NCBI RefSeq assembly: GCF_028898845.1
Contig: NZ_CP118575.1
Location: 248,001 to 312,000, forward strand
Length of the DNA: 64,000 bases
Reading direction: 5' to 3'
Source of the DNA: Streptomyces sp. WZ-12
GTDB taxonomy: Bacteria; Actinomycetota; Actinomycetes; Streptomycetales; Streptomycetaceae
In this document: in pieces, positions 11,538 through 53,025 of the stretch
Layout of the letters: each line of letters begins with the position of its first letter
How positions within the stretch are numbered: the stretch's first letter is position 1
Program-made: the position numbers and the translations under genes
Notes under the pieces: model-generated
Seen by the model: only the letters and a program-made list of their open reading frames with translations
Database searches by the model: none
Told to the model about the DNA's origin: nothing

Positions 11538-11813
11538 TCAAGGAAGTCCTGAACCCCCACAGGCGGTGGCTTGGGTGCCGGTTTCCAGGCCCGTGGCGAC
11601 GATGGAGTACGTGCCGGAGGCGGGGTAGGTGTACTGGGCGTAGGCCTTGTAGATCCCGTCGAATTCGGTTACCTCGGCGTGGACTACATGGTCACCCTCC
11701 GGGCCTCTTTCGTCGTCGAAATTGACGGAGATTCCGGCGTCGGAGTCATCGGGAGGGACCTTATCGACGGTAACCCTGATGGACAGGCCGTTTGATTCGA
11801 GGCTGGCTGCCAT
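11538..11813 (-). CDS. Small beta-sandwich-like protein of unknown function
   Basis: The product is 91 residues with ATG at 11813 preceded by AAGGAGG about 10 bases upstream, a strong ribosome site. The sequence (LSIRVTVDKVPPDDSDAGIS, VVHAEVTEFDGIYKAYAQYT, ASGTYSIVATGLETGT) alternates strands like an Ig-like or PKD-like domain, without a signal peptide. The last codons (GSGLP and the stop) are supplied by the terminal repeat of the IS481 element, so the natural C-terminus may have been longer. I do not recognise the family. Confidence 0.55.
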   Translation of the reverse strand: MAASLESNGLSIRVTVDKVPPDDSDAGISVNFDDERGPEGDHVVHAEVTEFDGIYKAYAQYTYPASGTYSIVATGLETGTQATACGGSGLP

Positions 11814-36800: not shown

Positions 36801-39776
36801 AAGCCGGGTAGAAAACTCGGTCGTGTATCGCGGATACCGACCAGATATTTTATGAGACTGCCTGTAGGTAGGCAGCGTAGCCTGCGACAAGGGGGGTATG
36901 GTAGGGGTGACTTCGATGTCTCCTGTGGTGGGTTGCATGATTTCGTAGAATGTGGCGTGTGTCTGGGCGTGGAGGTTGATGGTGTGGGGTTGTCCGTCGG
37001 CGGGTATGGTGCCGAGGTGGTATGTGCCGTGGTGGTGCCAGTTGAGTGTGATGTTGTATTCTATTGTTGTGTCGTGTGTGTCGGGCTGGCCGGTGATTTG
37101 GAGTATCTTTCCGCTGAATTCTGTTGCGAGGCTGACGGTGTCGGGGAGGTCCAGGTAGGATGTTCCGTTGAGTGAGATCCTCTCGCCTTGGTACGGTCGG
37201 GCGGGGGCAGTTTCCATTCCTGCGGCCGGCCTCTGGGTGAATTCCTTCTTCTCTGTCCCAGCTGCTTTTTCTATGATTCTGGCCAGGCCGATGCCTTCCC
37301 CCATCATCAGTCCCTGGACGAGTCCCTCCTTTTCTTTCCCGGTCGCCTTTTCTATTATTCTGACCAGTTCGCGGATGTTGATGAAGGTTTCCTGTGGTTC
37401 TGCGAGTTCCGTTCCGGACGGGGCCTGGACCAGGGCCGGCTCCAGTACTCTCAGGACCTTTTCTGCTGCCTCTAGCTGCTGCTGGGTCAGGAGGAGGGGG
37501 GCGGCGAATCCGGTGAGGGGGAAGATGTCGGCGCTGCCGGGGATGCTGAGCGGGGTGAGGTCGGGCAGGGCGGGAACGGCGTTCTTGACGAGGGTTTTGA
37601 TGATGTCAGGGATATTGAGGAGGCCGGGGGTTTTCCAGAGGTTCTGGTGCTGGTTGCTGATGGGTGAGATAACGGTGAGGGTATGGGGTGTGAGGTCCAG
37701 GGGGAGGTACACGGTGTGGTCGCGTTCGGGGTCGTCGGTGAAGTGTTCCGTGGAGACTGTGGTGGTGTGGCCGGGGCTGATGGTGGTAACGCACACCAGG
37801 TCGGAGAGGTAGCCTTCGGGGAGGGGGGAAGCGGTGGTGATGCGGGGGACACCGTTGTGGAAGGTGATGTCCATCCAGTCGGGGGTGAAGAAGGAGGCCC
37901 CGCCCAGAGTGTGGTGGATGCCGTCGGCGCCGCTGGAGCGCATGCCGCTGTAACGGGGATGGGATTTGTTACTGCGGACAAGGGCGGGGGCGCCGTTGAC
38001 GGTGTCAGCTTTGAGGTAGCCAGTACCGACCCGGCGTGTGGTGGTGGGGGGCTGTCCGGGGCGGGGCGTGTCGGACGGGCTGGTGAACAAGCGCCCGAGC
38101 AGGCTCCGGTGCCCTTCGAGGACGAAGCCTGAGCGCTGGGGCTTGGTGGTCACCTTTTCGGGTGTGCCGAGGGCGATGCGGGCGATGTTGCGTAGGGACT
38201 CGCTGCCAGGGGTGTAGTAAGCGGTGTGGGGTGCGACGGGGCCGGTGACCGGGAAGTCTTCGTCCTCGGTCCTGATGCGGGTGACATCGCCGTACTTCAT
38301 GTGGGTGGGGTCGATGCTGAACCAGTTGAGTTTGCTGACGATGTCCTCCTTGTTGGCACCGGTGTAGATATGGGAGGCGGGGATATTGAGATGCCGGGCG
38401 CGGCGGCCGGTGCCGGGACTGCCCAAGAGGACCAGGTAGTCCGCATTCCCCCCGCCCACCGGCTGCCGATAGTAGGCCTCGTGTGCGGCGGCGAGAGTGC
38501 GGGCCCCGATGGTCTTCGCAGCATCCATTGCAGTGCCGACGCCACCGCCCGCCGCGATGTCGGCGGCTGTCGTCCCGACTCTCGCAGCGGATTTCGCAGC
38601 CTCGACTGCGATCTCGGCCGCCCCGCCGCCCGCCTGCCACGACTTGGCGGCAGGGCCCACAACGCTGTAGCCGACGGCCTCGGCTCCAGCGCCTTTCACC
38701 GCGCCAGTGACAGCGGCCCGCGCGGCGGCAGTGACACTGGTGCCGCCAGGGACGGGTTTCATCATGGCGTGACCGGCAACAACACTGCCGTAGCTGTAAC
38801 CGACCACAGTGATCACCGGCTGCTCCGGCAGCCCCTTCCCCGCCCTGACAGCGGCATCCCCCCGCCACAGGGCACGCCACTGGGCGAGATCGAGGTTCAA
38901 AAGCTGTGACCCCGCCTGGGCCAAGGCTTCGTTGCTGACCTCGCCCTTTACCGCCCACAGGTTTCGGGGAGCCTTATATCCCTGCCATGCCACGACCGCG
39001 ACCGGCACCTTGCCTGCGCCCGTGTCCTCGACCTGGATTTCTTTCAGGCAGGCCCGGCGGACGTTGCAGGCACTGCGCACCAGCTCATGGAAGTTCTCCG
39101 GGGCACTGCCCATACCAGGCACCAGGACCACCACATACCGCGCGGATTCGATCGGCCCGACTGCCACCGCCATCCGCCCAACACCGCCAAAACTGGGATC
39201 GTAGGACAGCACGCTGGCCGGGACACCTGCATCGACCTCCCCCAGAGCCCGCCACAGATACCCCGCAGCCTCCTTACGACGGCCCTCAGGCGAATCCCCC
39301 GGATCCTCCACAGTGAGTTCGGGGCGCCCGGCGGCCCCACCGAGACCGATACGCAAACCACCACCCTCCGGCCCCGCCTCGCCGGCCAGCGTCTCACCCA
39401 TCTCGGGTGCCTTCCTCACCCCCTTGACCAGCCGGGACACGCCCTCCCGCGGCAGCACCCTCTTCGGCACCACCGACTTCCCCCCCAGCAACGCCCGCCC
39501 CATGTCCCCCCACATCCGATCGCGGCACTCCTGGTCCAGCCCCCCAAACCCCCCAGACACCACCCCCGCAAACCCCCGCCACACACCCGGCCCCTCCGGG
39601 CCCCCGGATACCCCCATCGGATACTGCGCCGCGACGACAGCGCGAACGACTTGGGCCTTCTGGGCATCGCTCAGAGAAGGACGCCGCCGCTCTTTCTTCT
39701 TCTCACCACTGCTCCTCTGGCTGCCCCCACTCGTCCGGGGCTCCTGTTGAGATTTTTTGGAGGGGGACATCGTCAT
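33873..39776 (-). CDS. Giant multidomain protein: DUF1023-type alpha/beta-hydrolase, hydrophobic segments, CBM-like C-terminus
   Basis: ATG 39776 has GGAG 7 bases upstream; the product is 1967 residues with no signal peptide. The first 40 residues are basic, Ser-rich and disordered. About 150-550 matches DUF1023 alpha/beta-hydrolases: YVVVLVPGMGSAPENFHELV, nucleophile in VVGYSYGSVVAGHA, YLVLLGSPGTG and the His motif PHTAYYTPGSESLRNIARI. The middle (about 850-1530) is beta-rich and unrecognised. About 1560-1690 contains hydrophobic helices (AGDVLVIGMTAAGVGAAALL), then a helical part, and the last 150 residues resemble a CBM4/9-type jelly roll (FNPKFDDGLRSWEFWGDKPE ... CDDFALFEED). DNA for roughly the last 1000 residues is clearly lower in GC than the first 900. 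A toxin or injected effector is plausible but unproved. Confidence 0.72.
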   Translation of the reverse strand: MTMSPSKKSQQEPRTSGGSQRSSGEKKKERRRPSLSDAQKAQVVRAVVAAQYPMGVSGGPEGPGVWRGFAGVVSGGFGGLDQECRDRMWGDMGRALLGGKSVVPKRVLPREGVSRLVKGVRKAPEMGETLAGEAGPEGGGLRIGLGGAAGRPELTVEDPGDSPEGRRKEAAGYLWRALGEVDAGVPASVLSYDPSFGGVGRMAVAVGPIESARYVVVLVPGMGSAPENFHELVRSACNVRRACLKEIQVEDTGAGKVPVAVVAWQGYKAPRNLWAVKGEVSNEALAQAGSQLLNLDLAQWRALWRGDAAVRAGKGLPEQPVITVVGYSYGSVVAGHAMMKPVPGGTSVTAAARAAVTGAVKGAGAEAVGYSVVGPAAKSWQAGGGAAEIAVEAAKSAARVGTTAADIAAGGGVGTAMDAAKTIGARTLAAAHEAYYRQPVGGGNADYLVLLGSPGTGRRARHLNIPASHIYTGANKEDIVSKLNWFSIDPTHMKYGDVTRIRTEDEDFPVTGPVAPHTAYYTPGSESLRNIARIALGTPEKVTTKPQRSGFVLEGHRSLLGRLFTSPSDTPRPGQPPTTTRRVGTGYLKADTVNGAPALVRSNKSHPRYSGMRSSGADGIHHTLGGASFFTPDWMDITFHNGVPRITTASPLPEGYLSDLVCVTTISPGHTTTVSTEHFTDDPERDHTVYLPLDLTPHTLTVISPISNQHQNLWKTPGLLNIPDIIKTLVKNAVPALPDLTPLSIPGSADIFPLTGFAAPLLLTQQQLEAAEKVLRVLEPALVQAPSGTELAEPQETFINIRELVRIIEKATGKEKEGLVQGLMMGEGIGLARIIEKAAGTEKKEFTQRPAAGMETAPARPYQGERISLNGTSYLDLPDTVSLATEFSGKILQITGQPDTHDTTIEYNITLNWHHHGTYHLGTIPADGQPHTINLHAQTHATFYEIMQPTTGDIEVTPTIPPLSQATLPTYRQSHKISGRYPRYTTEFSTRLLRDYPLPIVRSTWKMPPDTKNTVPMLWRRSSVRQMYTLLWENGIHLDSPPGTDYRLDFLFPCESALPFREYEYVENRTARTDPNADTTYAAYVSITVPTAGDYTDGELWQYTAAGVESYVCTVPMGEQVRHFITGPYADPIAGFRFKAKIPTNAPQSIPLPGGKFLPVSRIPKSPETLGDKDKYETYVTSLTSPTLDPMFHSATPVPMARQRVVTASGRPISDPWGEPQEVFAPTSPKFVKWELQADMENIKVKVTGPYDIRVRTMNRVSKFPGQKPSSGTPTVENYPAKSTIIKAGSQKIVPRASTLYLEPLPGEDRFMALTPDFLTLEMVNELPSGALAPGTGESWRNLIQHGSGTRVSITGSKTKIIDTSGNMRTETSWFPTLEIIKGNSTVRCLSTCTLPYLDPLDPSHIITGCEPNGLFDEVRITIKTSGSTLLDAWLPANGLLYRFPLPGRIQEEIRQNAQIVTEAIIGREAERLQEQSATPVPPVTPAPAERVSILSGTTQVAITRSIAPKADLAGHFTGGSAGSAGSAFGAGVGMAIQLLDPQSDTTTNIETALHGGAVVLPFAVDKVAVALELGKPVLRKIAYLGPGVSLAANAYSLTQKLTAREQDKPGIALDVLGVAGDVLVIGMTAAGVGAAALLVTGALLAAPALLAVLDSLLHDALDHPYDFMKNMRDLCIKVINDRLEAAQHRIITPLQQKIMDTHKPGNERDEKLLELDRRWQAASQQIARQVIISQYGEYQKWIEGLNPGYLAKVRLSGYMTSLGYNPQESSYSDRQSKDIYLRIANSVKDQLIRHVDVIAAGQPLPETAVGLALSPVSTLQGYSSTEFIFNPKFDDGLRSWEFWGDKPEFNYKEKHSGRQSVGFLGIKSKGGVEQILNGLTPGKRYILEAWGRSGRGKGPVIGVKTTEGAYMASKAIDLPYWQKVQIRFTTPSSSKVKIFFYVEPGRTGLCDDFALFEEDFTPTHSF

Positions 39777-40091: not shown

Positions 40092-41348
40092 GTGATCCTC
40101 GTGGAGGACTGGGCAGAGATCCGTCGCCTGCACCGGGCCGAGCAGATGCCGATCCGGGCGATCGCGCGACACCTGGGCATCTCGAAGAACACGGTCAAGC
40201 GGGCCCTGGCCAGCGACCGGCCGCCGAAGTATGAGCGACCGCCGAAGGGTTCGGTGGTGGACGCGGTCGAGGTGCAGATCCGTGAGCTGTTGCGGGAGAC
40301 ACCGACGATGCCCGCGACCGTGATCGCCGAGCGGATCGGTTGGGAGCGGGGAATGACGATCCTTAAGGACCGGATCCGCGAACTGCGACCGGCCTACGTT
40401 CCCGTCGATCCGGTCTCCCGCACGACCTATCGGCCCGGTGAACTGGCCCAGTGCGACCTGTGGTTCCCCGAAGCGCAGATCCCGCTGGGCTATGGCCAGA
40501 CCGGCCGGCCTCCGGTGCTGGTGATGGTGTCGGGGTATTCACGCGTGATCGCCGCGCGGATGCTGCCCTCGCGAAGGACCGGCGACCTGATCCACGGTCA
40601 CTGGCACCTGCTGTCGCAATGGCAGGCCGTCCCCAAGACGCTGGTCTGGGACAACGAGGCCGGCGTCGGCCGCGGACGCCCCACCAGCGAATTCGCCGCG
40701 TTCGCGGGCCTGCTCGCCACCAAGATCTACCTCTGCCGACCACGGGATCCCGAGGCGAAAGGGCTGGTGGAGCGGGCCAACGGCTATCTGGAGACCTCGT
40801 TCCTGCCCGGCCGTCACTTCAGCGGCCCGGACGACTTCAACACCCAACTCGACGCCTGGCTCAAGGTCGCCAACCGGCGCGTCCACCGAACCCTCGGAGC
40901 CCGTCCGGTCGATCGGTGGGAGGCGGACCGGGCCCAGATGCTCACCCTGCCGGCGGTGGATCCGCCGACCTGGTGGCGGTTTGCCACCCGGCTCGGCCGG
41001 GACCACTACGTCCGCGTCGACACCTGCGACTACTCCGTCGACCCCGCCGCCATCGGCCACCACGTCACCGTGCTCACCGACAACGACGAGGTCATCGTCC
41101 TAACCACCGGCGGAGAGATCGTCGCCCGGCACGTTCGCTGCTGGGCCCGCCACCAGACCCTCACCGATCCCGAACACGCCGAGACCTCAGCGATGATGCG
41201 GCATCAAGCACGGTGTCGTCCGACGGGCCAGATCCAGGCCGTCGGCACCGGATCCGGCCCGCTGGTCGAGGTCGAACAGAGAGAACTGGGCGCCTATGAC
41301 CGGCTGTTCACCGTCATCGACGGCGGCGTCAACAAGGAGGCCGGCTGA
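40092..41348 (+). CDS. istA: IS21 transposase IstA (type c)
   Basis: The 418-residue protein has an HTH (MPIRAIARHLGISKNTVKRA), an integrase core (AQCDLWFPEAQIPLGYGQTG, PKTLVWDNEAGVGRGR, EAKGLVERANGYLETSF) and a C-terminal beta domain (VRVDTCDYSVDPAAIGHHV). The start codon follows AGGAGGAAGG. Its TGA overlaps the istB start in ATG-A fashion at 41348. It appears intact. Confidence 0.9.
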   Translation: MILVEDWAEIRRLHRAEQMPIRAIARHLGISKNTVKRALASDRPPKYERPPKGSVVDAVEVQIRELLRETPTMPATVIAERIGWERGMTILKDRIRELRPAYVPVDPVSRTTYRPGELAQCDLWFPEAQIPLGYGQTGRPPVLVMVSGYSRVIAARMLPSRRTGDLIHGHWHLLSQWQAVPKTLVWDNEAGVGRGRPTSEFAAFAGLLATKIYLCRPRDPEAKGLVERANGYLETSFLPGRHFSGPDDFNTQLDAWLKVANRRVHRTLGARPVDRWEADRAQMLTLPAVDPPTWWRFATRLGRDHYVRVDTCDYSVDPAAIGHHVTVLTDNDEVIVLTTGGEIVARHVRCWARHQTLTDPEHAETSAMMRHQARCRPTGQIQAVGTGSGPLVEVEQRELGAYDRLFTVIDGGVNKEAG

Positions 41349-42049
41349 TGTCCCGCACTCCCACCGCAGGCGGCGAGTCAATGTTGACCCAGCCCGCAGC
41401 CGGGCCCGCGGCCGCCGGCCGTCGCACCAGCCAGCAGACCACCTCCGACCTAGCTTTCCTCGCCCGGGCCCTCAAAGCCCCGGCCCTGCTGGCCGCCGCC
41501 GACCGCCTGGCCGAACGGGCCCGCAAGGAGTCCTGGACCCACCCGGAATACCTCGTCGCCTGCCTCCAACGCGAGGTCGCCGCCCGCGAATCCCACGGCG
41601 GTGAAGCACGAGTCCGCGCCGCCCGCTTCCCCGCGGACAAGACGATCGAAGAACTCGACGTCGCCTATCTGCGCGGCCTGACGCGCGAACAACTCTCCCA
41701 CCTGGGAACCTTGGACTTCATCGCAGGCAAGGAGAACGTCGTCTTCCTGGGCCCGCCGGGCACGGGCAAGACCCACCTGGCCATCGGCCTGGGCGTCCGG
41801 GCCTGCCAGGCCGGCCACCGCGTCGCCTTCGCCACCGCCGCGGAATGGGTCGACCACCTCGCCGCCGCCCACCAGGCCGGCAACCTCGCCGCCGAACTCA
41901 CCCGCCTCGCACGCTACCCGCTCATCGTGGTGGACGAAGTCGGCTACATCCCCTTCGAATCGGAGGCCGCCAACCTGTTCTTCCAACTCATCTCAAACCG
42001 CTACGAACGCGCGTCCGTGATCGTCACCAGCAACAAGCCCTTCGGACGC
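41348..42049 (+). pseudogene. istB: IstB, C-terminally truncated (type c)
   Basis: Walker A (GPPGTGKTHLAIGLGVRACQ), Walker B (YPLIVVDEVGYIPFE) and the sensor (VIVTSNKPFGR) are present in about 230 residues. The usual final 50 residues, starting WGEVF, are replaced by inverted IS3 sequence at 42050. The shortened protein is probably not functional. Confidence 0.85.
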
Positions 42050-42335
42050 TGCGAAGCGCGGCGAGTTCGACGCGTTCGTCGCTGGTCAGCCGGTCGTCCC
42101 GCTCGCCGGCATCGGCCTCGGCCTGCCGGATCCAGCCGCGCAGGGCCTCGGGATGCACGCCGAGCTCGATAGCCAGTCGCTTGATCTGGGGCTTCGGGTC
42201 GGAGGTCCGGTACATCCGCACCGCACGCTCGCGCAACTCCAGCGAGTACTTCCTGGGGGCAGCCATGGTCGATGTTCCTCTCATGAGAACCATCTGACCC
42301 TCTGTCACCATCCTCCGCATCTCGGGGGAACCTCA
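42050..42335 (-). mobile_element. IS3 type A, 5' fragment (copy D)
   Basis: It runs from the terminal repeat (complement of TGAGGTTCCCCCG at 42335) through orfA codons 1-72 (start 42266, to VELAALR) and stops at the istB junction. The slippery site and orfB are missing. Confidence 0.88.
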
Positions 42336-42400
42336 CTCCGCCACCGCATCCTCCTCCCATAAGCAGAACCCAGCGTCACCACCAACTACGGAACAGAGCC
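42336..42400. mobile_element. ISL3 type a, terminal 65 bp
   Basis: The sequence is the complement of bases 1130-1194 or so of the ISL3a element, ending with its terminal repeat at 42400. It is the left end of that element, but it abuts the same IS5 sequence that the element's right end abuts at 2612. Confidence 0.8.
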
Positions 42401-42555
42401 AGAAGTCGAACACCGTCCAAGCCACCCTGCGCGCTCCGGTCGAACGGACGATCTCCCGGATCAAGCAGTGGCGGATCTTCCGCCACGCCCGCATCAGCCC
42501 GAACAGACTCACGTCAGTCGCCGCCGCGATCATCACCCTCATGATCTACACGTGA
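42401..42555 (+). pseudogene. IS5-family transposase C-terminal fragment, copy 2
   Basis: It matches 2613-2777 and keeps the intact ending NRLTSVAAAIITLMIYT before TGA 42553-42555. One base is lost near the left junction (AGAAGTCG against AGAAGTTCG). Confidence 0.7.
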
Positions 42556-42639
42556 AAAACGCTCCAACGCCGCTGCGTTAGGGCTTGAAAGTGCAGGTCA
42601 AGGGGCTGGGAGACGCAACGGGACTCCTGATAGATCAAC

Positions 42640-43636
42640 TTGTTGCGAAGCGAGTCGGTCGAGCAAGGGGTCCCGTTGCAGGAGAAGTCTGTCATCATCC
42701 GGAGGGTCGAGATGGCCGGGGGTGTGTTCGCGCCGGGGCATATAGGCGAGTTGACGCAGGTGGTGGACTTCGCACTGGTGGACGCGGTGCTCGCGGAGAC
42801 GCGGGCGGTGCAGCGGCGCATCCGGCTGCTGCCCGCCCGGGTGGTGGTGTACTTCGTGCTCGCCCTGGCGCTGTTCGAGGGGTGCTCCTACCGGGCGGTG
42901 TGGGGCAAGCTCACCGGGGCGCTGGGGGATCTCGGCCTGGTCTGTCCGCATTCCTCGTCTCTGTCCCGGGCCCGGCGTCGGTTCGGGGCCGGGCCGCTCA
43001 AGGTGCTGTTCGAAGCCGTGTCCGGAGCGGTGGCCTGGCGGGATTCTCCCGGCGCGTACTGGTCGGGAATGAGTACGGTCGCCTTCGATGGCACCGGCCT
43101 GCAGCTGCCGGACCGCGACCCGGTCACCGCCCGGTTCCCGAAACGGCACGGCGAGCAGCGCGAGTTCGGCTACCCGCTGCTGCGGCTGGTCACTCTGGTC
43201 GAGACCGGCACCCGCGCGATTCTCGGGGCGGCCTTCGGACCCGAGAATGACGGCGAACTCGCCTACGCCACCCGTCTGATGGGCCGCCTCGGCCCGGGGA
43301 TGCTGGTCCTGGCCGACGCCTGCTTCGACGCTTTGGGCTTCCTACGCGATGTCCGCCACACCGGAGCGCACTTCCTGGTCCGTTCCTCCGCCTGCCGCCG
43401 GCCGACCGCTTGTCAGCACCTGCCGGACGCTTGTACCTGGCCCGTCTTGCCGCCCCTTACCGGGCCGGCCACCGCTACAGCCCGCTCACCGTCCGCGTGA
43501 TCGAGGCATGGGTCACGGTCACACTCGCCGACGGCACCACCCACCGCGAGCCCTGGCGGCTGGTCACCAGCCTCCTGGACCATGAACGCCACCCGGCCGA
43601 CCGCCTCGTGGCCTTGTATCACGAGAGGTGGCAGGC
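42640..43636 (+). pseudogene. IS4-like transposase, frameshifted and 3'-truncated
   Basis: The frame encodes IGELTQVVDFALVDAVLAET, RIRLLPARVVVYFVLALALF (DUF4372-like N-terminus), STVAFDGTGLQLPDRDPVTA and LGPGMLVLADACFDALGF. Near 43430 the frame shifts to YLARLAAPYRAGHRYSPLTV, and the coding part ends at YHERWQAE, just past the catalytic Glu, where the IS3 element begins (43637). Confidence 0.8.
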
Positions 43637-43705
43637 TGAGGTTCCCCCGAGATGCGGAGGATGGTGACAGAGGGTCAGATGGTTCTCATGAGAGGAACAT
43701 CGACC

Positions 43706-44014
43706 ATGGCTGCCCCCAGGAAGTACTCGCTGGAGTTGCGCGAGCGTGCGGTGCGGATGTACCGGACCTCCGACCCGAAGCCCCAGATCAAGCGACTGGC
43801 TATCGAGCTCGGCGTGCATCCCGAGGCCCTGCGCGGCTGGATCCGGCAGGCCGAGGCCGATGCCGGCGAGCGGGACGACCGGCTGACCAGCGACGAACGC
43901 GTCGAACTCGCCGCGCTTCGCAAGGAGAACGCCCAGCTCAAGCGCGCGAACGAAGTTCTGCGGACGGCCTCGGCTTTTTTCGCGGCGCAACTCGACCCGA
44001 CCCGGCCCAGGTGA
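43706..44014 (+). CDS. IS3 OrfA (copy C)
   Basis: This 102-residue DNA-binding subunit has the same HTH and leucine-zipper helix as copy B. The in-frame heptamer T TTT TTC at 43975-43981 (codons TTT TTC) is a textbook -1 slippery site leading into orfB. Confidence 0.88.
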   Translation: MAAPRKYSLELRERAVRMYRTSDPKPQIKRLAIELGVHPEALRGWIRQAEADAGERDDRLTSDERVELAALRKENAQLKRANEVLRTASAFFAAQLDPTRPR

Positions 44015-44928
44015 CGGGGCTCCTCGACGAGCACCCTGACCTGGGAGTCGAGTGCGTCCTGCGGGAACTGCACATCGCCTCCTCCACCTACTACCGCTGG
44101 CGCCGCGCCGAGAAGCAGCCGTGCGAGCGGCGGCGTCGCGACGTCGAGCTGACCGAGCGGATCAAGGAGATCCACACCGAGTCCGGCGGGATCTACGGCT
44201 CTCCGCGCGTGCATGCCGTGCTGAAACGCGAGGGCACACGCGTGGGCCGCAAGCGGGTCGAGCGCCTGATGCGCGAGGCCGACCTGGCGGGCATCAGCCC
44301 GCGCCGCACAGGCTTCACGCGCCGGGATCCGAAGGCCACACTCGCCCCGGACCTGGTCAACCGGGACTTCACCGCACCGGCGCCGAACCGGCTGTGGGTC
44401 ACCGACCTGACGATGATCTCGACCGGCGAGGGCCCGCTGTGGCTGTCGGCGATCCGGGACGCGTTCTCCCGCCGGGTGGTGGCCTGGGAGACCTCCGCCC
44501 GCGCGGACGCCGACCTGGTCCTGACCACGCTGGAGTACGCCCTCGCGTCCCGCGAGGTCGAGCCCGGCAAGCTCATCCACCATGCCGACCACGGCTGTCA
44601 GTACACATCCATCAAGCTCACAACTCGCCTGCTGCGGGCAGGAGTTGACGCGTCCATGGGCTCCGTCGGGGACAGCCACGACAACGCCCTCGCGGAGAAC
44701 CTGTGGATGCTGATCAAGACCGAGTGCGTGCGCGGCCGCGTCTTCGCCACACGTGCCGAGGCGAACCTCGCGCTCTTCGAGTACACAGACGGCTTCTATA
44801 ACTCCCGCCGCACCCAGGAACGACTCGGCTTCCTCAGCCCGATCGAATTCGAGGAGAAGTACTACGCCGAGCAGGCAACGGCCGAACGAGCGAACCTGAA
44901 ACCCCGTCAACCCCTCCTGACCAGCTGA
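43975..44928 (+). CDS. IS3 OrfB catalytic domain, expressed by -1 frameshift (copy C)
   Basis: After slippage the frame continues FFRGATRPDPAQVTGLLDEH and contains VTDLTMIST (D), HADHGCQYTS (D) and NALAENLWMLIKTE (E), ending KPRQPLLTS. It differs from copy B by Leu for Pro in RLGF(L/P)SPIEFEEK. It is intact and potentially active. Confidence 0.9.
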   Translation, partial: FFRGATRPDPAQVTGLLDEHPDLGVECVLRELHIASSTYYRWRRAEKQPCERRRRDVELTERIKEIHTESGGIYGSPRVHAVLKREGTRVGRKRVERLMREADLAGISPRRTGFTRRDPKATLAPDLVNRDFTAPAPNRLWVTDLTMISTGEGPLWLSAIRDAFSRRVVAWETSARADADLVLTTLEYALASREVEPGKLIHHADHGCQYTSIKLTTRLLRAGVDASMGSVGDSHDNALAENLWMLIKTECVRGRVFATRAEANLALFEYTDGFYNSRRTQERLGFLSPIEFEEKYYAEQATAERANLKPRQPLLTS

Positions 44929-44959: not shown

Positions 44960-45365
44960 ATCTTCCACACAGCGCCATGATTGGAAGCTGTTCCTACAAC
45001 CAACTCCTTCTCATGCTCAGGACACACGGAGACGTGGAACTTCCTGCCGATCAGCGTGGCCACCCGCGCTGCGGTCCACACCTGGTCCTCCACCCAGCCG
45101 TGCGCGGCCGGACCCTGTTCGAGGCAGGCGGCGGTTTCTCCAGACAGCGCGGGGACAGACGACACCGCGATCCGCCTGGACCACGGGACGCCAGGGCCCC
45201 AGGCCCGCCGTCCCGCCACAACTGATGCCACTGGTAGGCCGATTTCCGACTCACCCGCAGGCGCTGTGCGACCTCCGACGGCTTGATCTCCTGCTCGAAC
45301 AACTCGGCCGCCTGTACTCGTACGGCCCCGCAGCGGTCAGTCCGCCCCCATCCGCATACCTCACA
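44960..45365 (-). pseudogene. IS630-family transposase, N-terminal fragment with frameshifts
   Basis: The pieces YADGGGLTA, VQAAELFEQEIKPSEVAQRL, RVSRKSAYQWHQLWRDGG, then CLEQGPAAHGWVEDQVWTAA and RVATLIGRKFHVS in two frames form the HTH half of an IS630 transposase. The DDE half is absent, replaced by the IS3 end at 44959. Confidence 0.78.
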
Positions 45366-45506
45366 CACAACGGAATACGACCAATACCCCAGCAACGTCA
45401 GGGGTTTCATGAAAGATCACCCTGACGAGCCGAAGTCGGTATTGATCGGCAAGCCCTAAACGCAGCGGCATTGCCGGGGGGTGGATCGAGGATCACCGAA
45501 GGTTTC

Positions 45507-47579
45507 TTATACGGCTCGAGCTTCCTGATGGGCCTGGGAAATCCGGAAGACGATGAACTCCGCCGGGCGTACCAAGGCGACACCGACGTCGCAGATGACC
45601 TTGGCAGCGGCGATAGTCTCGGGGGTGTTGTTGCTTTCGTCGCATACGACGTAAAATGCCTCCCGTGCGATGGCTCCCTGCAGGGCACCTGAGCGCCATT
45701 GTGTCTTCAAAAACTGGGAGACATTTGCGCACAAGGTGTCGCGGAGTTGCTGATCGTTCGGTTCGAAGACGGCCCAGCGTGTGCCGAGCTTGAGGGATTC
45801 TTCGAGGTAGTTCATCAAGCGGCGTAGGTTCACGTACCGCCACTGGTCTTCCTTCGACAGGGTGCGCGCGCCCCATACGCGGTTGCCCCAGCCTGGGAAG
45901 GAGCGGAGACAGTTGATGCCTTCGGCGTTGAGCGGATCCTGATCGCGGTCGGTCAGTTCCCGCTCCAAGGCCTTTACATCCTGTAGCGCTATGTTGGCTG
46001 GGGCCTTGTGCACTCCCTTCTCTCGGTCCGCTTTGCACCACACTCCTGACACAGGTCCCGACGGTGGTACCAGGTGGCCGCGGGATGTCTCCACCCACGG
46101 GTAGTACAGTGCCGCGTACCGACTGTCCGTATCCGTCAGCCCGAGTTCCCGCACGTACGCCTGCACCCTGTCCGGGTTCGCTCCCTTCGGCGGGTCCATA
46201 ATCACCATTCGGTTTTCATTCGCGCAATGTTGCGCCGCCTTCTGCCAAATTCCCGCCGCTCGAGCTTCGGTGATCCCGGGGATATTCCAGACATCGGGGA
46301 TCGTGACCATGGTGACCTCAGGAACTCTCTCCAGTGCGGTCAAACCGACCCCGGGAAGACTTTGAGACTCCCCGATAATACGCTCGATCAGCTCATCCGC
46401 CGGTAGAACGATCCCTTCATCGCTTGTGGTGCGTATTCCGGCTACCCAACACACTCCGCCACCGTTGGAGAAAAATCCATAAACCGCATCCCACAACGAA
46501 AAAGTCAGCCCAGCCTCCTGATGAGCCACCCCCACCGTGTGATACTCGCCCGCGGCGATTGCGACGATGTCACGCCAGCTATCAAGCTCTTCCGGAATAT
46601 AACCCGTATCTTCGCCGCTGCGGGTGTAGTGAACCTCGCCATTCTTGTCCACCCCCACCGTGTGAATCCTGCTCGCGGCGATTGCAACAATGTCACGCCA
46701 GCTATCAAGCTCTTCCGGAATATAACCCCAATCTGCGCCGCTGCGGGTGTAGTGAACCTCGCCATTCTTGTCCACCCCCACCGTGTGCGTCACGCCCGCG
46801 GCGATTGCGACGATGTCACGCCAGCTATCAAGCTCTTCCGGAAGATAACCCGAATCTGCGCCGCTGCGGGTGTAGTGAACCTCGCCATTCTTGTCCACCC
46901 CCACCGTGTGCATCAAGCCCGCGGCGATTGCGACGATGTCACGCCAGCTATCAAGCTCTTCCGGAATATAACCCGAATCTCCGCCGCTGCGGGTGTAGTG
47001 AACCTCGCCATTCTTGTCCACCCCCACCGTGTGAATCCTGCTCGCGGCGATTGCGACGATGTCACGCCAGCTATCAAGCTCTTCCGGAATATAACCCCAA
47101 TCTGCGCCGCTGCGGGTGTAGTGAACCTCGCCATTCTTGTCCACCCCCACCGTGTGAATCAAGCTCGCGGCGATTGCGACGATGTCATGCCAGCTATCAA
47201 GCTCTTCCGGAAGATAACCCGTATCTTCGCCGCTGCGGGTGTAGTGAACCTCGCCATTCTTGTCCACCCCCACCGTGTGATACGCGCCCGCGGCGATTGC
47301 AACAATGTCACGCCAGCTATCAAGCTCTTCCGGAAGATAACCCGAATATGCATGGGAGGCGGTATAAACCATCTCACTTGCCACAGCACCTGCTGGTGGA
47401 GGACCGTAAATGTCCGTGAACTCATTCCAGGAGCGTACGAGGGTGGGTTCGGCGGGTCCGGTGAGGGTGAATCCGATGAAGGCAGGAACGGAAGTACTGA
47501 CGCCAGCGATGGAACGCATACCGCTGAGCTGTTCCTCGACGTAGATACCAGGAGTGCTATACGGAGCAGGGGGAGGCAT
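45507..47579 (-). CDS. Contractile tail-sheath protein with inserted seven-repeat RCC1-like beta-propeller
   Basis: The 690-residue protein starts YSTPGIYVEEQLSGMRSIAG with VSTSVPAFIGFT, the usual N-terminus of contractile sheaths (phage tails, eCIS, R-type). Residues about 354-380 resume with LWDAVYGFFSNGGGVCWVAG, and about 560-690 is the C-terminal sheath domain (PGWGNRVWGARTLSKEDQWR, YVNLRRLMNYLEESLKLGTR, PAEFIVFRISQ). Between them, residues 80-353 hold six 41-residue repeats and a partial seventh, each with SWRDIVAIAAG..HTVGVDKNGEV, like RCC1_2 motifs; seven such units would close a propeller. Without the insert the protein would be about 415 residues, a normal short sheath. The ribosome site is weak (GGAAAG). 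No tube gene follows: IS debris begins just past the stop. Confidence 0.88.
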   Translation of the reverse strand: MPPPAPYSTPGIYVEEQLSGMRSIAGVSTSVPAFIGFTLTGPAEPTLVRSWNEFTDIYGPPPAGAVASEMVYTASHAYSGYLPEELDSWRDIVAIAAGAYHTVGVDKNGEVHYTRSGEDTGYLPEELDSWHDIVAIAASLIHTVGVDKNGEVHYTRSGADWGYIPEELDSWRDIVAIAASRIHTVGVDKNGEVHYTRSGGDSGYIPEELDSWRDIVAIAAGLMHTVGVDKNGEVHYTRSGADSGYLPEELDSWRDIVAIAAGVTHTVGVDKNGEVHYTRSGADWGYIPEELDSWRDIVAIAASRIHTVGVDKNGEVHYTRSGEDTGYIPEELDSWRDIVAIAAGEYHTVGVAHQEAGLTFSLWDAVYGFFSNGGGVCWVAGIRTTSDEGIVLPADELIERIIGESQSLPGVGLTALERVPEVTMVTIPDVWNIPGITEARAAGIWQKAAQHCANENRMVIMDPPKGANPDRVQAYVRELGLTDTDSRYAALYYPWVETSRGHLVPPSGPVSGVWCKADREKGVHKAPANIALQDVKALERELTDRDQDPLNAEGINCLRSFPGWGNRVWGARTLSKEDQWRYVNLRRLMNYLEESLKLGTRWAVFEPNDQQLRDTLCANVSQFLKTQWRSGALQGAIAREAFYVVCDESNNTPETIAAAKVICDVGVALVRPAEFIVFRISQAHQEARAV
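46524..47342. repeat. Tandem 123-bp coding repeats in the sheath gene
   Basis: Near-identical 123-bp units begin about every 123 bases (for example at 46537, 46660, 46783, 46906, 47029, 47152 and 47275 on the plus strand). Most differences fall in three neighbouring codons before the HTVGV motif and in the two or three codons ending each repeat. Synonymous sites are also conserved, indicating recent duplication or gene conversion. Confidence 0.9.
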
Positions 47580-47867
47580 AAGTGACTGCTTTCCGAGCCC
47601 CGGAGACAGTCACCAGGGACTCATCGGAAGTGACGGAACAGCCGGCGCGGGAAGGTCATGTCAGCTCGGCAAACTGCTGAAGCAGCTTGAATCCAGCCTT
47701 GCGTCAGCCAAATGAGGGAGAGTGATTTCACGTACGCTCGCCAGTCTGGCAGACCGGTACCGCCTAAAGCCTTCCCAACAAGAGCCCCTTAGGGGCAGGT
47801 ACTACAGCCTCAGATCTTGTGAATCGCCCCGTGTTTGTTGGAGGGTGTCGGCAACGGGTGAAATCGT
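47580..47867. other. Upstream region of the sheath gene
   Basis: No gene is seen in these 288 bases. It should include the sheath promoter (minus strand). GCCCCTTAGGGGC near 47781 is a small hairpin. The ISL3 type c end starts at 47868. Confidence 0.3.
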
Positions 47868-48061: not shown

Positions 48062-49144
48062 TTGGGAGATGGCTTGAGCGGCACGACGGTGCTCACGGAG
48101 AAGTGGCCGGTGTTCGGCCGGCACGAGCAGGCAGCGGCCTGGCTGACGGTCTGGACGGATCTCGGACGTGCACCCCGCACGATCGACGCCTACGGCCGGG
48201 GACTGGCCGAGTACCTGCTGATGTGCGAGCGGGAGGGTGTCGACCCGGTCGCCGCGAACCGTTCCCATATCGCCGTCTACGTACGGGAGTTGACCTCGCG
48301 GCCGCACCGCCGGGGTGCGAACGTGATCTCGATCGACTCGGGGGCGGGGCTGGCGAACGCGACGATCCAGCAGCGGCTCGTGCCGGTCCGCCTGTTCTAC
48401 GACTTCCTCATGGAAGAGGGGCTGCGGGAGTCCAACCCCGTCGGCCGGGGGCGCTACACCCCCGGCCGACGGAACGGCGGTCCGCAGCGCGGCCTGGTGC
48501 CCCGACTGACGAAGCTGCCGTGGATTCCCGGCGAACAGCAGTGGCTGAACGTCCTGGAGGTCGCCAAGCGCGAGCCGGTACGCAACCGCGTGATGCTCGC
48601 CCTGGCCTACGACGCCGCCCTGCGCCGCGAGGAACTGTGCTCACTGCGGACCGACGACGTCGATCCGGCCCACCGCACGCTGCGGATACGAGCGGAAACG
48701 ACGAAGAACCGGCTGGAGCGGGTGGTGCCCTACTCGGCACCGACCGGGGTACTGCTGTCGGACTACCTCGCCCACCGCGCCCGGATCAGCCGGGCCCGGG
48801 GACCGCTGTTCCTGTCGGAATCGCGGCGCAATCACGCCCAGCCGCTGAGCCTGTGGACCTGGTCAAAAGTGGTCCGCAAACTCGCGCTGACCTCCGGTGT
48901 CGAGCGGTTCTCCACGCATACCACCCGGCACCTGTGTCTGACCGATCTGGCCCGCATGGGCTGGGAGTTGCACGCGATCGCGTCCTTCGCCGGACACCGT
49001 CACACCGACTCGACCCTTCAGTACATCCACCTCTCCGGCCGGGACCTGGCCGACAAGCTGGCCCGCGGCATGGACCACATTCATGCCTGGCGAATACAGA
49101 TGCTCACCGCCCCGGCCGGCGCGACGGCGGAGGTGTCGCGGTGA
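48062..49144 (+). CDS. Tyrosine recombinase, Tn554 TnpA-like
   Basis: The 360-residue protein has an N-terminal SAM-like core-binding domain (about 25-125, APRTIDAYGRGLAEYLLMCE) and a phage-integrase catalytic domain. The active residues are visible: Arg in DAALRREELCSLR, HTTRH, the second His in FAGHRHTDSTLQY and the Tyr of that motif. It overlaps tnpB by GTGA. Length and order match TnpA of Tn554-type elements, which use paired recombinases for site-specific insertion. Confidence 0.85.
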   Translation: MGDGLSGTTVLTEKWPVFGRHEQAAAWLTVWTDLGRAPRTIDAYGRGLAEYLLMCEREGVDPVAANRSHIAVYVRELTSRPHRRGANVISIDSGAGLANATIQQRLVPVRLFYDFLMEEGLRESNPVGRGRYTPGRRNGGPQRGLVPRLTKLPWIPGEQQWLNVLEVAKREPVRNRVMLALAYDAALRREELCSLRTDDVDPAHRTLRIRAETTKNRLERVVPYSAPTGVLLSDYLAHRARISRARGPLFLSESRRNHAQPLSLWTWSKVVRKLALTSGVERFSTHTTRHLCLTDLARMGWELHAIASFAGHRHTDSTLQYIHLSGRDLADKLARGMDHIHAWRIQMLTAPAGATAEVSR

Positions 49145-51474
49145 TCGCATCGTCGCTGGCCATCGTCCCCGAGGACGTCGGCGGTCGCTGGTCCTGGCCG
49201 ATCATCCCGGACCGCTACGACACGACCGTCAAGGTCCGCCCCGCGGAGACACAGGCCGTCCTCGAACTCGGTGTGCGCAATCTGCGCCGGCTGCAGTACC
49301 ACGACCCGGCCGCACCGGGCTGGCGCATGATCGCACGGCTGCTGGGTCCGCTGGAGGCGGTCAACTCGGCACTCGACTCACCTCCCACTCCGCACCGCCG
49401 AAGGGCCATGCTCGACGTCGTTGCCCTTCTGCTGACGCACAGCGCGCAGACCAGACGGGCCTACTGGGGGTGGACCACGCAGGAGTGGGCCCATCTACTC
49501 GGCCGCACCCAGGCCGAGTTCCGGCAGAACGCACCCGCCTGGGCCGGGGACGAAGTCCGCCCCTACCTTGCGGCGCACGCCTACCTGCTCGGCTCCTTCA
49601 ACGAGTTCCACCAGCTCGGCAGCTTCCAACGCCTCACGCTGTCCTGGAGGATCTTCGGACGCGACCGCGTCACCAGCGAGATCGCCCGCCTCCGCACGGT
49701 CCTTGGCGCCTGGGGCTATCAACTGGGCCAGGACGACGACACACTGCTGCCGGCGGTCGCCTGCCAGCTGTTCCTGCTCAACCGCAGCCCGCACCTCGAG
49801 GACATGGACACCGCACTGTTCGACAGGGTCCGCCGCGACCGGCTGCTGGAGGGCGCCCGGCTGAACACCCTGCACGCCCTGCAGCGGGCGGTCGCCGCGC
49901 TCGGCTTCTGCGATCCACCCCTGCAGAGCACCGGCCGTCACTCGGCGCGGGCCACTGGCGGCGCCAAGATCTGGGAACAGTGGGCCGACCGCTGGCACGA
50001 CACCTCCACCCTCACCCCGCGCGTCCGCGGCAGCATCCGCTCCACCCTCCTGCGGGTCGGCCGGTGGATCGCCGCCGAACAGCCCGACGCCGCCGATCCC
50101 ACCGACTGGACCCGGCAGACCTGCGCGACCTGGATCGGCGCACTGGACCGGATGAAAGTCGGCGACTACGTCCAGCGCACGGTCGGCCTCAAGGACCGGC
50201 TCGGCAAGCCGCTTGAGGCACCCACCAAGGCCGGACAGATCACTGCGCTGCGGACCTTCTTTCGGGACTGCCAGGAGTGGGAGTGGCTGCCCCGCCGCTT
50301 CGACCCACTACGCGCTCTGGCGATCCCCCGCAGCATCACCGCCCTCCTCGGCCCCGACCCACGGGTGATCGCCGACGAGGTCTGGGCGAAGCTGTTGTGG
50401 GCCGGCCTCAACCTCGACCCCGCGGATCTTCCACAGACCCGCTCCGGACACTTCTACCCCTTCGAACTGGTCCGCGCGGTCACGCTGACCTGGCTGTTCT
50501 CCGGTCAACGCAGCAACGAGATCGCCCGGCTGAGACTGGGCTGCATCCGCTGGCAGCACGACGGGAACTCGATCGCAGGCGACTCGCAACAGGTGCTGGC
50601 CCGCGATGCGGTCTGCCTGCTCGACGTCCCGACCCACAAGACCGGCACCGCCTTCACCAAGCCGGTCGACCCGATCCTCGGCCAGGCCATCGACGTCTGG
50701 CAGGCCGTCCGCCCGGACCAGCCGAAGTTCACCGACCGCCGCACCGGCGAGCACGTCGAGCTGCTGTTCGCCGTCCGCGCCCGCCGCGTCTCCACCAGCT
50801 ACATCAACAACACGATCATCCCGATGCTCTGCCGCAAGGCCGGCGTCCCGGACGCCGACGTCCGAGGGAACATCACCAGCCACCGGGCCCGGTCCACCAT
50901 CGCCAGCCAGCTCTACAACGCCAAGGAACCGATGACGCTGTTCGAGCTGCAAGCCTGGCTCGGACATCGATCGCCACAATCCACCCAGTACTACGCGAAG
51001 ATCACCCCGAACACTCTGTCCAAGGCGTACTCCGAGGCGGGCTACTTCGAGCGGAACGTCCGCACCATCGAGGTCCTGGTCGACCGCGACGCGGTCACCT
51101 CCGGCGCCGCCGCGACCGGCGAACCCTGGCAGCACTACGACCTCGGACACGGCTACTGCACCTACACCTTCTTCGAGCAGTGCCAGCACCGCATGGCCTG
51201 CGCACGCTGCGACTTCTACACCCCCAAGGACTCCACGAGAGCCCAACTACTCGAAGCCAGGGGAAACTTGCAGAAAATGGCCGTCTCGATCCCACTCACC
51301 GAAGATGAACAAGCAGCCGTCACCGACGGCCAGAGCGCGCTCGACCGCCTCCTCGACAGACTCGCCGACACCCCCACCCCGGCCGGACCGACACCCCGCC
51401 AACTCGACGTCCCACCGAACACGCCCCTCCTTCCGATCCTCGACGTCCGCCAGGGCAAACCGCAGCAAGCTTGA
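49141..51474 (+). CDS. Large tyrosine recombinase, Tn554 TnpB-like
   Basis: GTG 49141 overlaps the tnpA stop (GTGA), so the two are translationally coupled; the frame is open further upstream but only as a shadow of tnpA. The 777-residue protein has a long N-terminal domain without clear motifs, then an integrase domain with Arg in FSGQRSNEIARLRLG, HRARSTIASQL, LGHRSPQSTQYYAKIT and the Cys-rich tail YTFFEQCQHRMACARCDFYT. It is longer than Tn554 TnpB (about 630 residues). Confidence 0.82.
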   Translation: MIASSLAIVPEDVGGRWSWPIIPDRYDTTVKVRPAETQAVLELGVRNLRRLQYHDPAAPGWRMIARLLGPLEAVNSALDSPPTPHRRRAMLDVVALLLTHSAQTRRAYWGWTTQEWAHLLGRTQAEFRQNAPAWAGDEVRPYLAAHAYLLGSFNEFHQLGSFQRLTLSWRIFGRDRVTSEIARLRTVLGAWGYQLGQDDDTLLPAVACQLFLLNRSPHLEDMDTALFDRVRRDRLLEGARLNTLHALQRAVAALGFCDPPLQSTGRHSARATGGAKIWEQWADRWHDTSTLTPRVRGSIRSTLLRVGRWIAAEQPDAADPTDWTRQTCATWIGALDRMKVGDYVQRTVGLKDRLGKPLEAPTKAGQITALRTFFRDCQEWEWLPRRFDPLRALAIPRSITALLGPDPRVIADEVWAKLLWAGLNLDPADLPQTRSGHFYPFELVRAVTLTWLFSGQRSNEIARLRLGCIRWQHDGNSIAGDSQQVLARDAVCLLDVPTHKTGTAFTKPVDPILGQAIDVWQAVRPDQPKFTDRRTGEHVELLFAVRARRVSTSYINNTIIPMLCRKAGVPDADVRGNITSHRARSTIASQLYNAKEPMTLFELQAWLGHRSPQSTQYYAKITPNTLSKAYSEAGYFERNVRTIEVLVDRDAVTSGAAATGEPWQHYDLGHGYCTYTFFEQCQHRMACARCDFYTPKDSTRAQLLEARGNLQKMAVSIPLTEDEQAAVTDGQSALDRLLDRLADTPTPAGPTPRQLDVPPNTPLLPILDVRQGKPQQA

Positions 51475-51510
51475 CAATTCTGATTCCACAGAATGGCTCT
51501 CGTATTCTGA

Positions 51511-53025
51511 CCCTCGACCTGGCCGGAGCTCCAGGAGCTGGACAGGCCGGCGACGACGGCGTCGAGGTCTTGGCCGAGGCCGGTGACGAAGGTGTGCAGG
51601 GCGGGCAGGTCGTCGGCCTGGACGCTCGTGATCCACTGGTTCAGGTCCCGACCCTGACGGTTGTTCATGAGCTCGGCGAACGCGCGGACGTGGTGGGCGG
51701 TGCGGTCGAGTGCGGGGCAGCGGACGAGGATCGCCTTGAGCTGCTGGGCCTGGTCATCGGTGAGACGGTCGGGATGGCGGGTGAGCCAGCTGGTCACGTC
51801 CCGCACGGACGGCGCCTTGCGGGGGGGCGTGCGGGAAGTTCTCGCGGAGCATGGCCACGTAGACCTTCACGACGTTCTCACCACCGGGGTAGCCGCGCTC
51901 GCGTACTTCCTCGAAGAGGCGGCGGGCGACGGTGCAGCCCTCCGCTCACCGCTGGTGCAGGTAGGGCTTGTAGGGGTCGAGGATGCTGGCCCGGCCGGCC
52001 CACCGGCCGACCAAGAGCTCGTCCGCGCTCGCCGCATTGGCGAAGCGACGGACGGTATTGCGGGCCAGTTCAAGCTGACGGGCGATCGCGCGCAGTCCGA
52101 CGCCCTGGTCGAGGAGGGCGTGAATGGCCGCGTGCTGTTCCCGGCCCCGGTCGGAGAGCCGGCCGGTTGTCCGCGGCCCTGTGGCAGAGCAGGCTTTGAG
52201 GTCCGCCTCATCGATGACCGCAGTGTCTCGGGCCGCGGCAGAGTCGTGCGGCTCACGCAGCAGAGCGCGGTGTTGAACGACTGTTTTCTCGACGGCCTCG
52301 GCGAGGTTCGACCAGATGTGCCAGCGGTCCGCGACGTGGACCGCGTCGGGAGCGCCGAGGCGTCCGGCTTCGGCATAGGCCGTGGAACGGTCCCGGCAGA
52401 TCACCTCGACGCCGGGATGGTCGGTGAGCCACCGAGCGACCGTCGCCGTCGTCCGGTCCGGCAGCAGGTCGATGGGCTGACGGGATTCGATGTCGATCAG
52501 GATCGTGCCGTAGTTGTGGCCCTTGCGCAGCGCGAAATCGTCGACCCCGAGCACCCGCGGCGTCGAGCTCTCCGGCTCCGGAAGGCGGCGGATCAACCGC
52601 AGCAGCGTCGACCGGCTCACCCCGGCCGCCAGGGCGTGGGACAGGCGGGCACCCGCCCGGCCGGCGAGCATCACGGCCAGGTGCTCCAGCACCGTTTGCA
52701 GCCCAGTGCTCCGACGACCGTGCCGTACGGTCAGGCCGTCGACCTGCTCGGCGAACGTCGCCTGCTGGCAGGAACGTTGACCGCAACGGAACCGCCGCAC
52801 CTGCAACTCGATCAACACCGGTCGCCCACCGACCGCGCTGTCGGCGAGCCGACGTACGTACCGGCTGTGCACCCGAGCCGACAGCGTCCCGCACGCTGGA
52901 CACACGGCCTGCTCCACAGCCGTCCGGGCCCGCACGGCCACCAACTCGCCCTCAGACACGACGTTTTCAATCACGACACCGTCGACCTGGTGGAACCACA
53001 GGTCCTGGAGGAGCACATCACCCAC
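51511..53025 (-). pseudogene. ISL3 type c transposase, main part, frameshifted
   Basis: From 53025 it has the zinc finger (VCPACGTLSARVHSRYVRRL, FRCGQRSCQQATFAEQVDGL) and the DDE core (VLGVDDFALRKGHNYGTILI, VADRWHIWSNLAEAVEKTVV), ending in frame at DPYKPYLHQR (51946). A shift follows and the other frame continues SVRDVTSWLTRHPDRLTDDQ to SSGQVEG at 51511. It is broken both by the frameshift and by the inserted element. Confidence 0.85.

Follow-up and report, generated by a model that had tools for sequence, protein, structure and literature searches.

A gene in a 64,000-nucleotide stretch of Streptomyces sp. WZ-12 DNA (the window, C2:248001-312000) encodes a protein that matches contractile sheaths at both ends and is interrupted by a seven-unit array of RCC1-type repeats. 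The genome comprises two contigs, C1 of 9.17 Mb and C2 of 378 kb, and the replicon C2 is probably a plasmid. The best explanation, unproven and given a probability of about 0.58, is that the array forms a diversifying recognition propeller on the sheath of a plasmid-borne injection system.

The open reading frame (45507..47579, minus strand) has an ATG start and encodes 690 residues. A sequence-only reading of this DNA had described the same frame, its strand not given, as a contractile sheath protein with an insert between the N-terminal sheath part and the AVYGFFSNGGG block, and the searches agreed with both claims. Pfam placed Phage_sheath_1 (PF04984, 54.5 bits, cut-off 31.4) at residues 451-574 and Phage_sheath_1C (PF17482, 62.1 bits, cut-off 26.9) at residues 576-681. 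The top solved relative of the whole protein was 8bky, the sheath of the Streptomyces coelicolor contractile injection system (CIS), with an E-value of 2.2e-91. Residues 6-70 match 3-68 of 8bky, 362-387 match 65-90 and 402-683 match 239-525; the insert therefore falls after the N-terminal sheath part and ahead of the AVYGFF block. When 13 sheaths including this one were aligned, 60 columns were invariant and the insert again lay between an SWxEF segment and AVYGFF. Judged by these matches the product is a CIS-Sc-type contractile sheath, and its fusion to an RCC1-type array is confirmed as real.

The N-terminal sheath part comprises about residues 1-74 (47358..47579, minus strand), the insert about residues 75-356 (46512..47357, minus strand), and the C-terminal sheath part, which begins just ahead of AVYGFFSNGGG, about residues 357-690 (45507..46511, minus strand). 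The modelled sheath core gave a fold match to the CIS-Sc sheath. The likeness to the solved CIS-Sc sheaths (8bky, 8bl4, 9gtp) covers the core over both termini; CIS-Sc, however, has its own extra stretch after the block (residues 90-239), whereas the WZ-12 sheath is short there and carries its insert ahead of the block.

Tandem repeat detection in the DNA found 6.7 copies of a 123-bp repeat with 93% matches (46526..47351, minus strand). In the protein these correspond to seven near-identical 41-residue units of the form GY[LI]PEELDSW, which start at residues 80, 121, 162, 203, 244, 285 and 326 here and in a second copy of the gene. The RCC1_2 profile matched the insert with an E-value of 8.3e-15 (54.5 bits, cut-off 22). 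Because profile scores are summed over repeats, and the unrelated families PF11800, PF13511 and PF07479 also passed their cut-offs within the array in the same scan, this score alone is weak evidence; the RCC1 assignment leans additionally on a solved RCC1 structure that matches the array (E-value 5e-4) and on RCC1 arrays that align with it in register. Both the repeat type and the number of units proposed in the sequence-only reading therefore stand. Residues 69-78 (EMVYTASHAY) look like a degenerate unit end. Since the N-terminal piece EMVYTASHAYSGY resembles the unit end EVHYTRSGxDxGY and the last unit ends with HTVGV, one blade is plausibly made up jointly by the two partial ends; a closed ring whose ends lie side by side could be accommodated in a loop with the core left unopened. 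Among the best 120 of 1057 matches to the array are proteins with kinase or TIR domains, and apart from its own second copy none of the 120 exceeds 45% identity. The closest other RCC1 gene in the genome, at C1:681 kb, is a 38% match.

The second sheath copy lies on the same replicon at C2:65028-67097 and is 97% identical in protein. It belongs to a duplicated block of 2736 bp (45087..47822, minus strand; twin at C2:64605-67340) whose 37 differences are all inside the gene: 36 fall in the 837-nt array, one, synonymous, in the remaining 1236 nt, and none outside the gene. There are 16 clusters of differing codons, of which the array contains 15 (a probability of ~1e-5 by hand calculation, with clusters taken as independent). 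Both 690-residue frames are intact with seven units each, and the array differences include no indel. The 23 in-unit codon changes between the copies fall on 10 of the 41 unit positions; in the 12 full units the other 31 codons are invariant, and two of the ten variable codons are synonymous and linked. As in the fungal HET-D/HET-E receptors, then, few codons of the unit vary and the rest are homogeneous. Whole codon pairs are replaced in otherwise identical DNA, for example GCG TAT by TTG ATG and GTG ACG by AAT TAT. Some pairs recur among the units of one copy, as expected from unit-to-unit exchange, and others, the private pairs, occur in one copy only. Searching the genome with the unit DNA (E-value up to 0.001) returned 14 matches, all within the two sheath genes, and no donor array for the private pairs elsewhere. 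A diversity-generating retroelement was rejected because no template repeat was found elsewhere in the genome; reverse transcriptases were not searched for. Between the copies the array has a nonsynonymous divergence (pN) of 0.048 and a synonymous divergence (pS) of 0.027, a modest excess that is suggestive only. The offsets that vary in the sheath were also the more variable ones within 116 RCC1-array proteins with at least seven units recognised by pattern, with a mean within-protein entropy of 1.85 vs 1.10 at other offsets. Unit positions 3, 20, 21 and 41 always carry G- or T-ending codons in the 12 units (window 46512-47357), a small sample, and C is common at nearby third positions.

The loop that holds the array is variable in other sheaths. 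Loci L035 to L116 gave 69 recognised sheath frames, and in 65 of them 60-61 residues separate a PG motif from the AVYGFF block. Insert length could be measured in 29 of 40 sheath rows (in the other 11 the motif was not recognised): the insert spans 302 residues in both RCC1 sheath copies and 184 in the plasmid pSSP121038; eight long-insert sheaths have 114-127, eight short-insert sheaths 25-49 (37 in the other sheath of the C2 replicon), and ten sheaths of the CIS-Sc type or other kinds 7-15. In several Streptomyces genomes a sheath with a long insert stands in tandem with a short-insert one. These tandem two-sheath clusters (L047/L121, L117, L118, L119, L120, L122; pSSP121038, L036) share the insertion loop and the short sheath core with the WZ-12 sheath, but their long-paralogue inserts (114-184 residues where measured, against 25-37 in the other paralogue) are helical, judged by the look of the sequence, and no RCC1 units were seen in the inserts of these relatives. 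In L036 and L117-L122 each paralogue has its own insert at the loop. A tree grouped the RCC1 sheath, the replicon's other sheath and the tandem sheaths (19 rows, 92/99, not starred), with long branches that leave the placement unsure. By this comparison the loop before AVYGFF is a permissive insertion site. Because relatives carry other inserts there, display of the propeller away from the sheath core is likely, as the sequence-only reading had presumed; that it faces outward, as the same reading had it, we infer only.

An injection locus lies elsewhere on the replicon. About 90 kb from the sheath gene in C2 coordinates, a cluster holds sheath, tube, hub, baseplate and ATPase genes, with the sheath beside the tube and baseplate genes and the tube, Baseplate_J and gp25 genes at 191-201 kb. 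It also encodes a Pvc16_N cap protein (L019:3298-5130; C2:202798-204630) that ends in a seven-unit RCC1-like array different from that of the sheath. AlphaFold modelled the cap array as a propeller of the RCC1/BLIP-II kind; Foldseek ranked dynein-chain and RCC1 entries first for this model, and 3qhy came first only in a second-look alignment. The second copy, the hypervariable codons, the cap array and the inserts of relatives, together with the lack of tube, Baseplate_J and gp25 genes near the sheath gene, add to what the sequence-only reading had described.

Together these data suggest how such a sheath might work. A closed seven-bladed propeller of the RCC1/BLIP-II type would sit in the permissive loop of the sheath core, its blade frame kept near-identical; in each blade a small set of codons, namely the pair that precedes the HT motif and the SGxDx loop, would diversify and spread from unit to unit. 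Going by general RCC1 topology, the variable codons would lie on one face. The assembled sheath, perhaps built together with the products of the C2 cluster or of one of the chromosomal injection systems, would display one propeller per subunit, a dense array that may bind a changing protein partner and be selected by it; the same replicon's injection cluster would place a separate array on the cap. Targeting by contractile injection systems is usually credited to baseplate tail fibres, and sheath and cap are regarded as machinery. If the proposal is true, hypervariable propellers on both would mean that the barrel itself carries recognition, in many copies, and that recognition would evolve through repeat exchange; the sheath would be a natural example of a display site on a protein scaffold, and polymorphic recognition devices among Streptomyces injection systems would become a testable idea. 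A bolder version, which we offer tentatively and would not bet on, is that sheath and cap form a polymorphic coat for recognition, equivalent in an injection machine to the fungal HET receptors, in which exchange and codon change retune binding or sensing of a rival cell, a phage, or self vs non-self. According to the part of PMC10066040 available, the S. coelicolor injection system resides in the cytoplasm and has a link to cell death; besides binding outside, the propeller could therefore also act as a sensor within the cell.

Known systems offer partial parallels. In the available text on HET-D and HET-E (PMC1805685), near-identical WD40 repeats undergo exchange and four codons per repeat diversify on a propeller face, but those repeats sit on a NOD-like receptor (NLR) and vary in number, whereas the WZ-12 repeats are of RCC1 type, sit on a sheath and number seven per array. 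Compared with BLIP-II and RCC1 propellers, the WZ-12 units are near-identical, the array is inserted in a sheath, and the sheath array lacks a confident model. Near-identical blades are also found in the highly repetitive bacterial propellers of PMC9218822, where, in the text available, RCC1/BLIPII make up 10% of the set, Actinobacteria are among the prevalent phyla and, unlike in WZ-12, no sheath or cap protein appears as host. Propellers as injection-system binding domains are already described as beta-propeller lectins of extracellular CIS tail fibres (PMC12923769); these sit in baseplate fibres, and the available text contains neither the word sheath nor RCC1. Additional phage sheath domains are placed away from the tube side and are mostly immunoglobulin-like (PMC9230969, in whose accessible text the word propeller is absent). 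The jumbo coliphage phAPEC6 encodes eleven RCC1-like proteins, and unusual fibres run along its sheath; these are separate proteins, and no sheath fusion appears in the part of PMC7247149 seen.

Several observations weigh against a diversifying propeller. AlphaFold modelled the full sheath with a predicted local distance difference test (pLDDT) score of about 40-49 for the greater part of the array and with helices where strands were expected; of the 25 other rows in its alignment, the second copy alone covers the array with RCC1 units, and RCC1 proteins offered as additional rows aligned onto the sheath part and were dropped. The fold prediction that the sequence-only reading had proposed as a check thus yielded a propeller for the sister cap array only, and closure into seven blades relies on the unit count and that sister model. 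Offsets -5 and -3 vary in the sheath and are ordinary in the 116 RCC1-array proteins, while +15, +18 and +20 are variable in those proteins and invariant in the sheath arrays. The excess of nonsynonymous change is modest, exchanged codons do not count as independent, and two copies from one genome give no rate. Exchange among units is not proven, because near-identical blades, common in bacterial propellers, can come from recent amplification alone (PMC9218822, partial text). Finally, the window has no match to PF06841, PF04865 or PF04965 (tube, Baseplate_J and gp25), so that the sheath gene is not beside tube and baseplate genes, and it stands among dense integrase, IS21, IS4, ISL3 and rve-type genes (window 40092-44928 and 48062-53025).

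This setting is what would be expected if insertion sequences had broken up a plasmid injection cluster and left a surviving sheath gene that builds nothing and whose array drifts, a reading that we regard as unlikely yet the most serious rival. Repeats resembling insertion sequences also abut the second copy on both sides, and a third array protein of the replicon has a truncated copy in the window (11538-11813). Drift sits poorly with two intact 690-residue frames of seven units each and with array changes that all preserve the frame; outside the array no nonsynonymous change separates the copies, though so few changes say little, and the C2 cluster retains its sheath, tube, hub, baseplate and ATPase genes. 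Alternatively the insert might, perhaps like those of relatives, merely stiffen or space the sheath, with its variation incidental. The apparently helical inserts at the same loop fit this, as does the proposal that extra phage sheath domains stabilise the tail (PMC9230969, partial text), but variation that favours positions variable in other RCC1-array proteins and an array on the cap protein, which is no sheath subunit, make such a role improbable. Misassembly is a general hazard of near-identical 123-bp tandem repeats, and the analysis is based on one assembly alone; still, 36 differences with no indel and the frame kept, with multi-base codon replacements that recur at the same unit positions and with codon pairs found in one copy only, are hardly what wrongly merged reads would produce, since errors are not expected to favour 10 of 41 positions, and we judge an artefact very improbable. 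The diversifying recognition propeller on the sheath remains the explanation that we favour.

Neither fusion turned up elsewhere in the sequences searched. At an E-value of 1e-25, a cut that also drops the genome's own distant RCC1 gene, neither the 392 genomes of the genus nor the 396 of the phylum gave a match to the sheath array beyond its own genome, and the cap array had none among the 392 genus genomes at the same cut. Among the best 120 of 1539 protein matches, only the second copy combined sheath and RCC1 domains, and lower-ranked matches could include another fusion; within this scope and these genomes the sequence-only reading, which knew of no other sheath with an RCC1-type propeller, was right. 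The cap protein search (lengths 0.55-1.75 times the query) returned the protein itself and one weak match, an ABC-transporter permease bearing RCC1 repeats. Viral contigs yielded neither a relative of the array nor a match to a degenerate motif. A Kitasatospora plasmid match starting at query residue 325 was rejected as a fused relative, as its sheath (L035:11884-13020) has no such insert. In the literature, subscription papers and preprints being outside the scope, we found no contractile injection system with a sheath and RCC1, and the match for Pvc16 and propeller concerns tail fibres in the text seen (PMC12923769).

The sheath gene is directly followed by a helix-turn-helix fragment, transposase-like by look (45051..45410, minus strand), which lies mostly inside the duplicated block and is related in DNA to 31 plasmid records of Streptomyces. 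A 78% relative of the downstream piece occurs at L138, and no upstream or downstream DNA was common to the sheath gene and the C2 cluster stretches compared. The third array protein (L136:8081-10399; C2:368080-370398) combines four near-identical repeats, immunoglobulin-like by look, with a seven-unit RCC1-like array, and is possibly a fibre or surface protein; the shortened copy at 11538..11813 (minus strand) corresponds to its N-terminus. A frame with a 70-residue repeat lies between the two tube genes (L018:18545-19501), and another repetitive frame occupies a seemingly similar place in a Kitasatospora cluster (L035:14026-15336). Elsewhere in the window, positions 33873-39776 (minus strand) encode a 1967-residue protein with Abhydrolase_8 and CBM_4_9 domains, partly in a stretch of lower G+C content (0.54-0.58).
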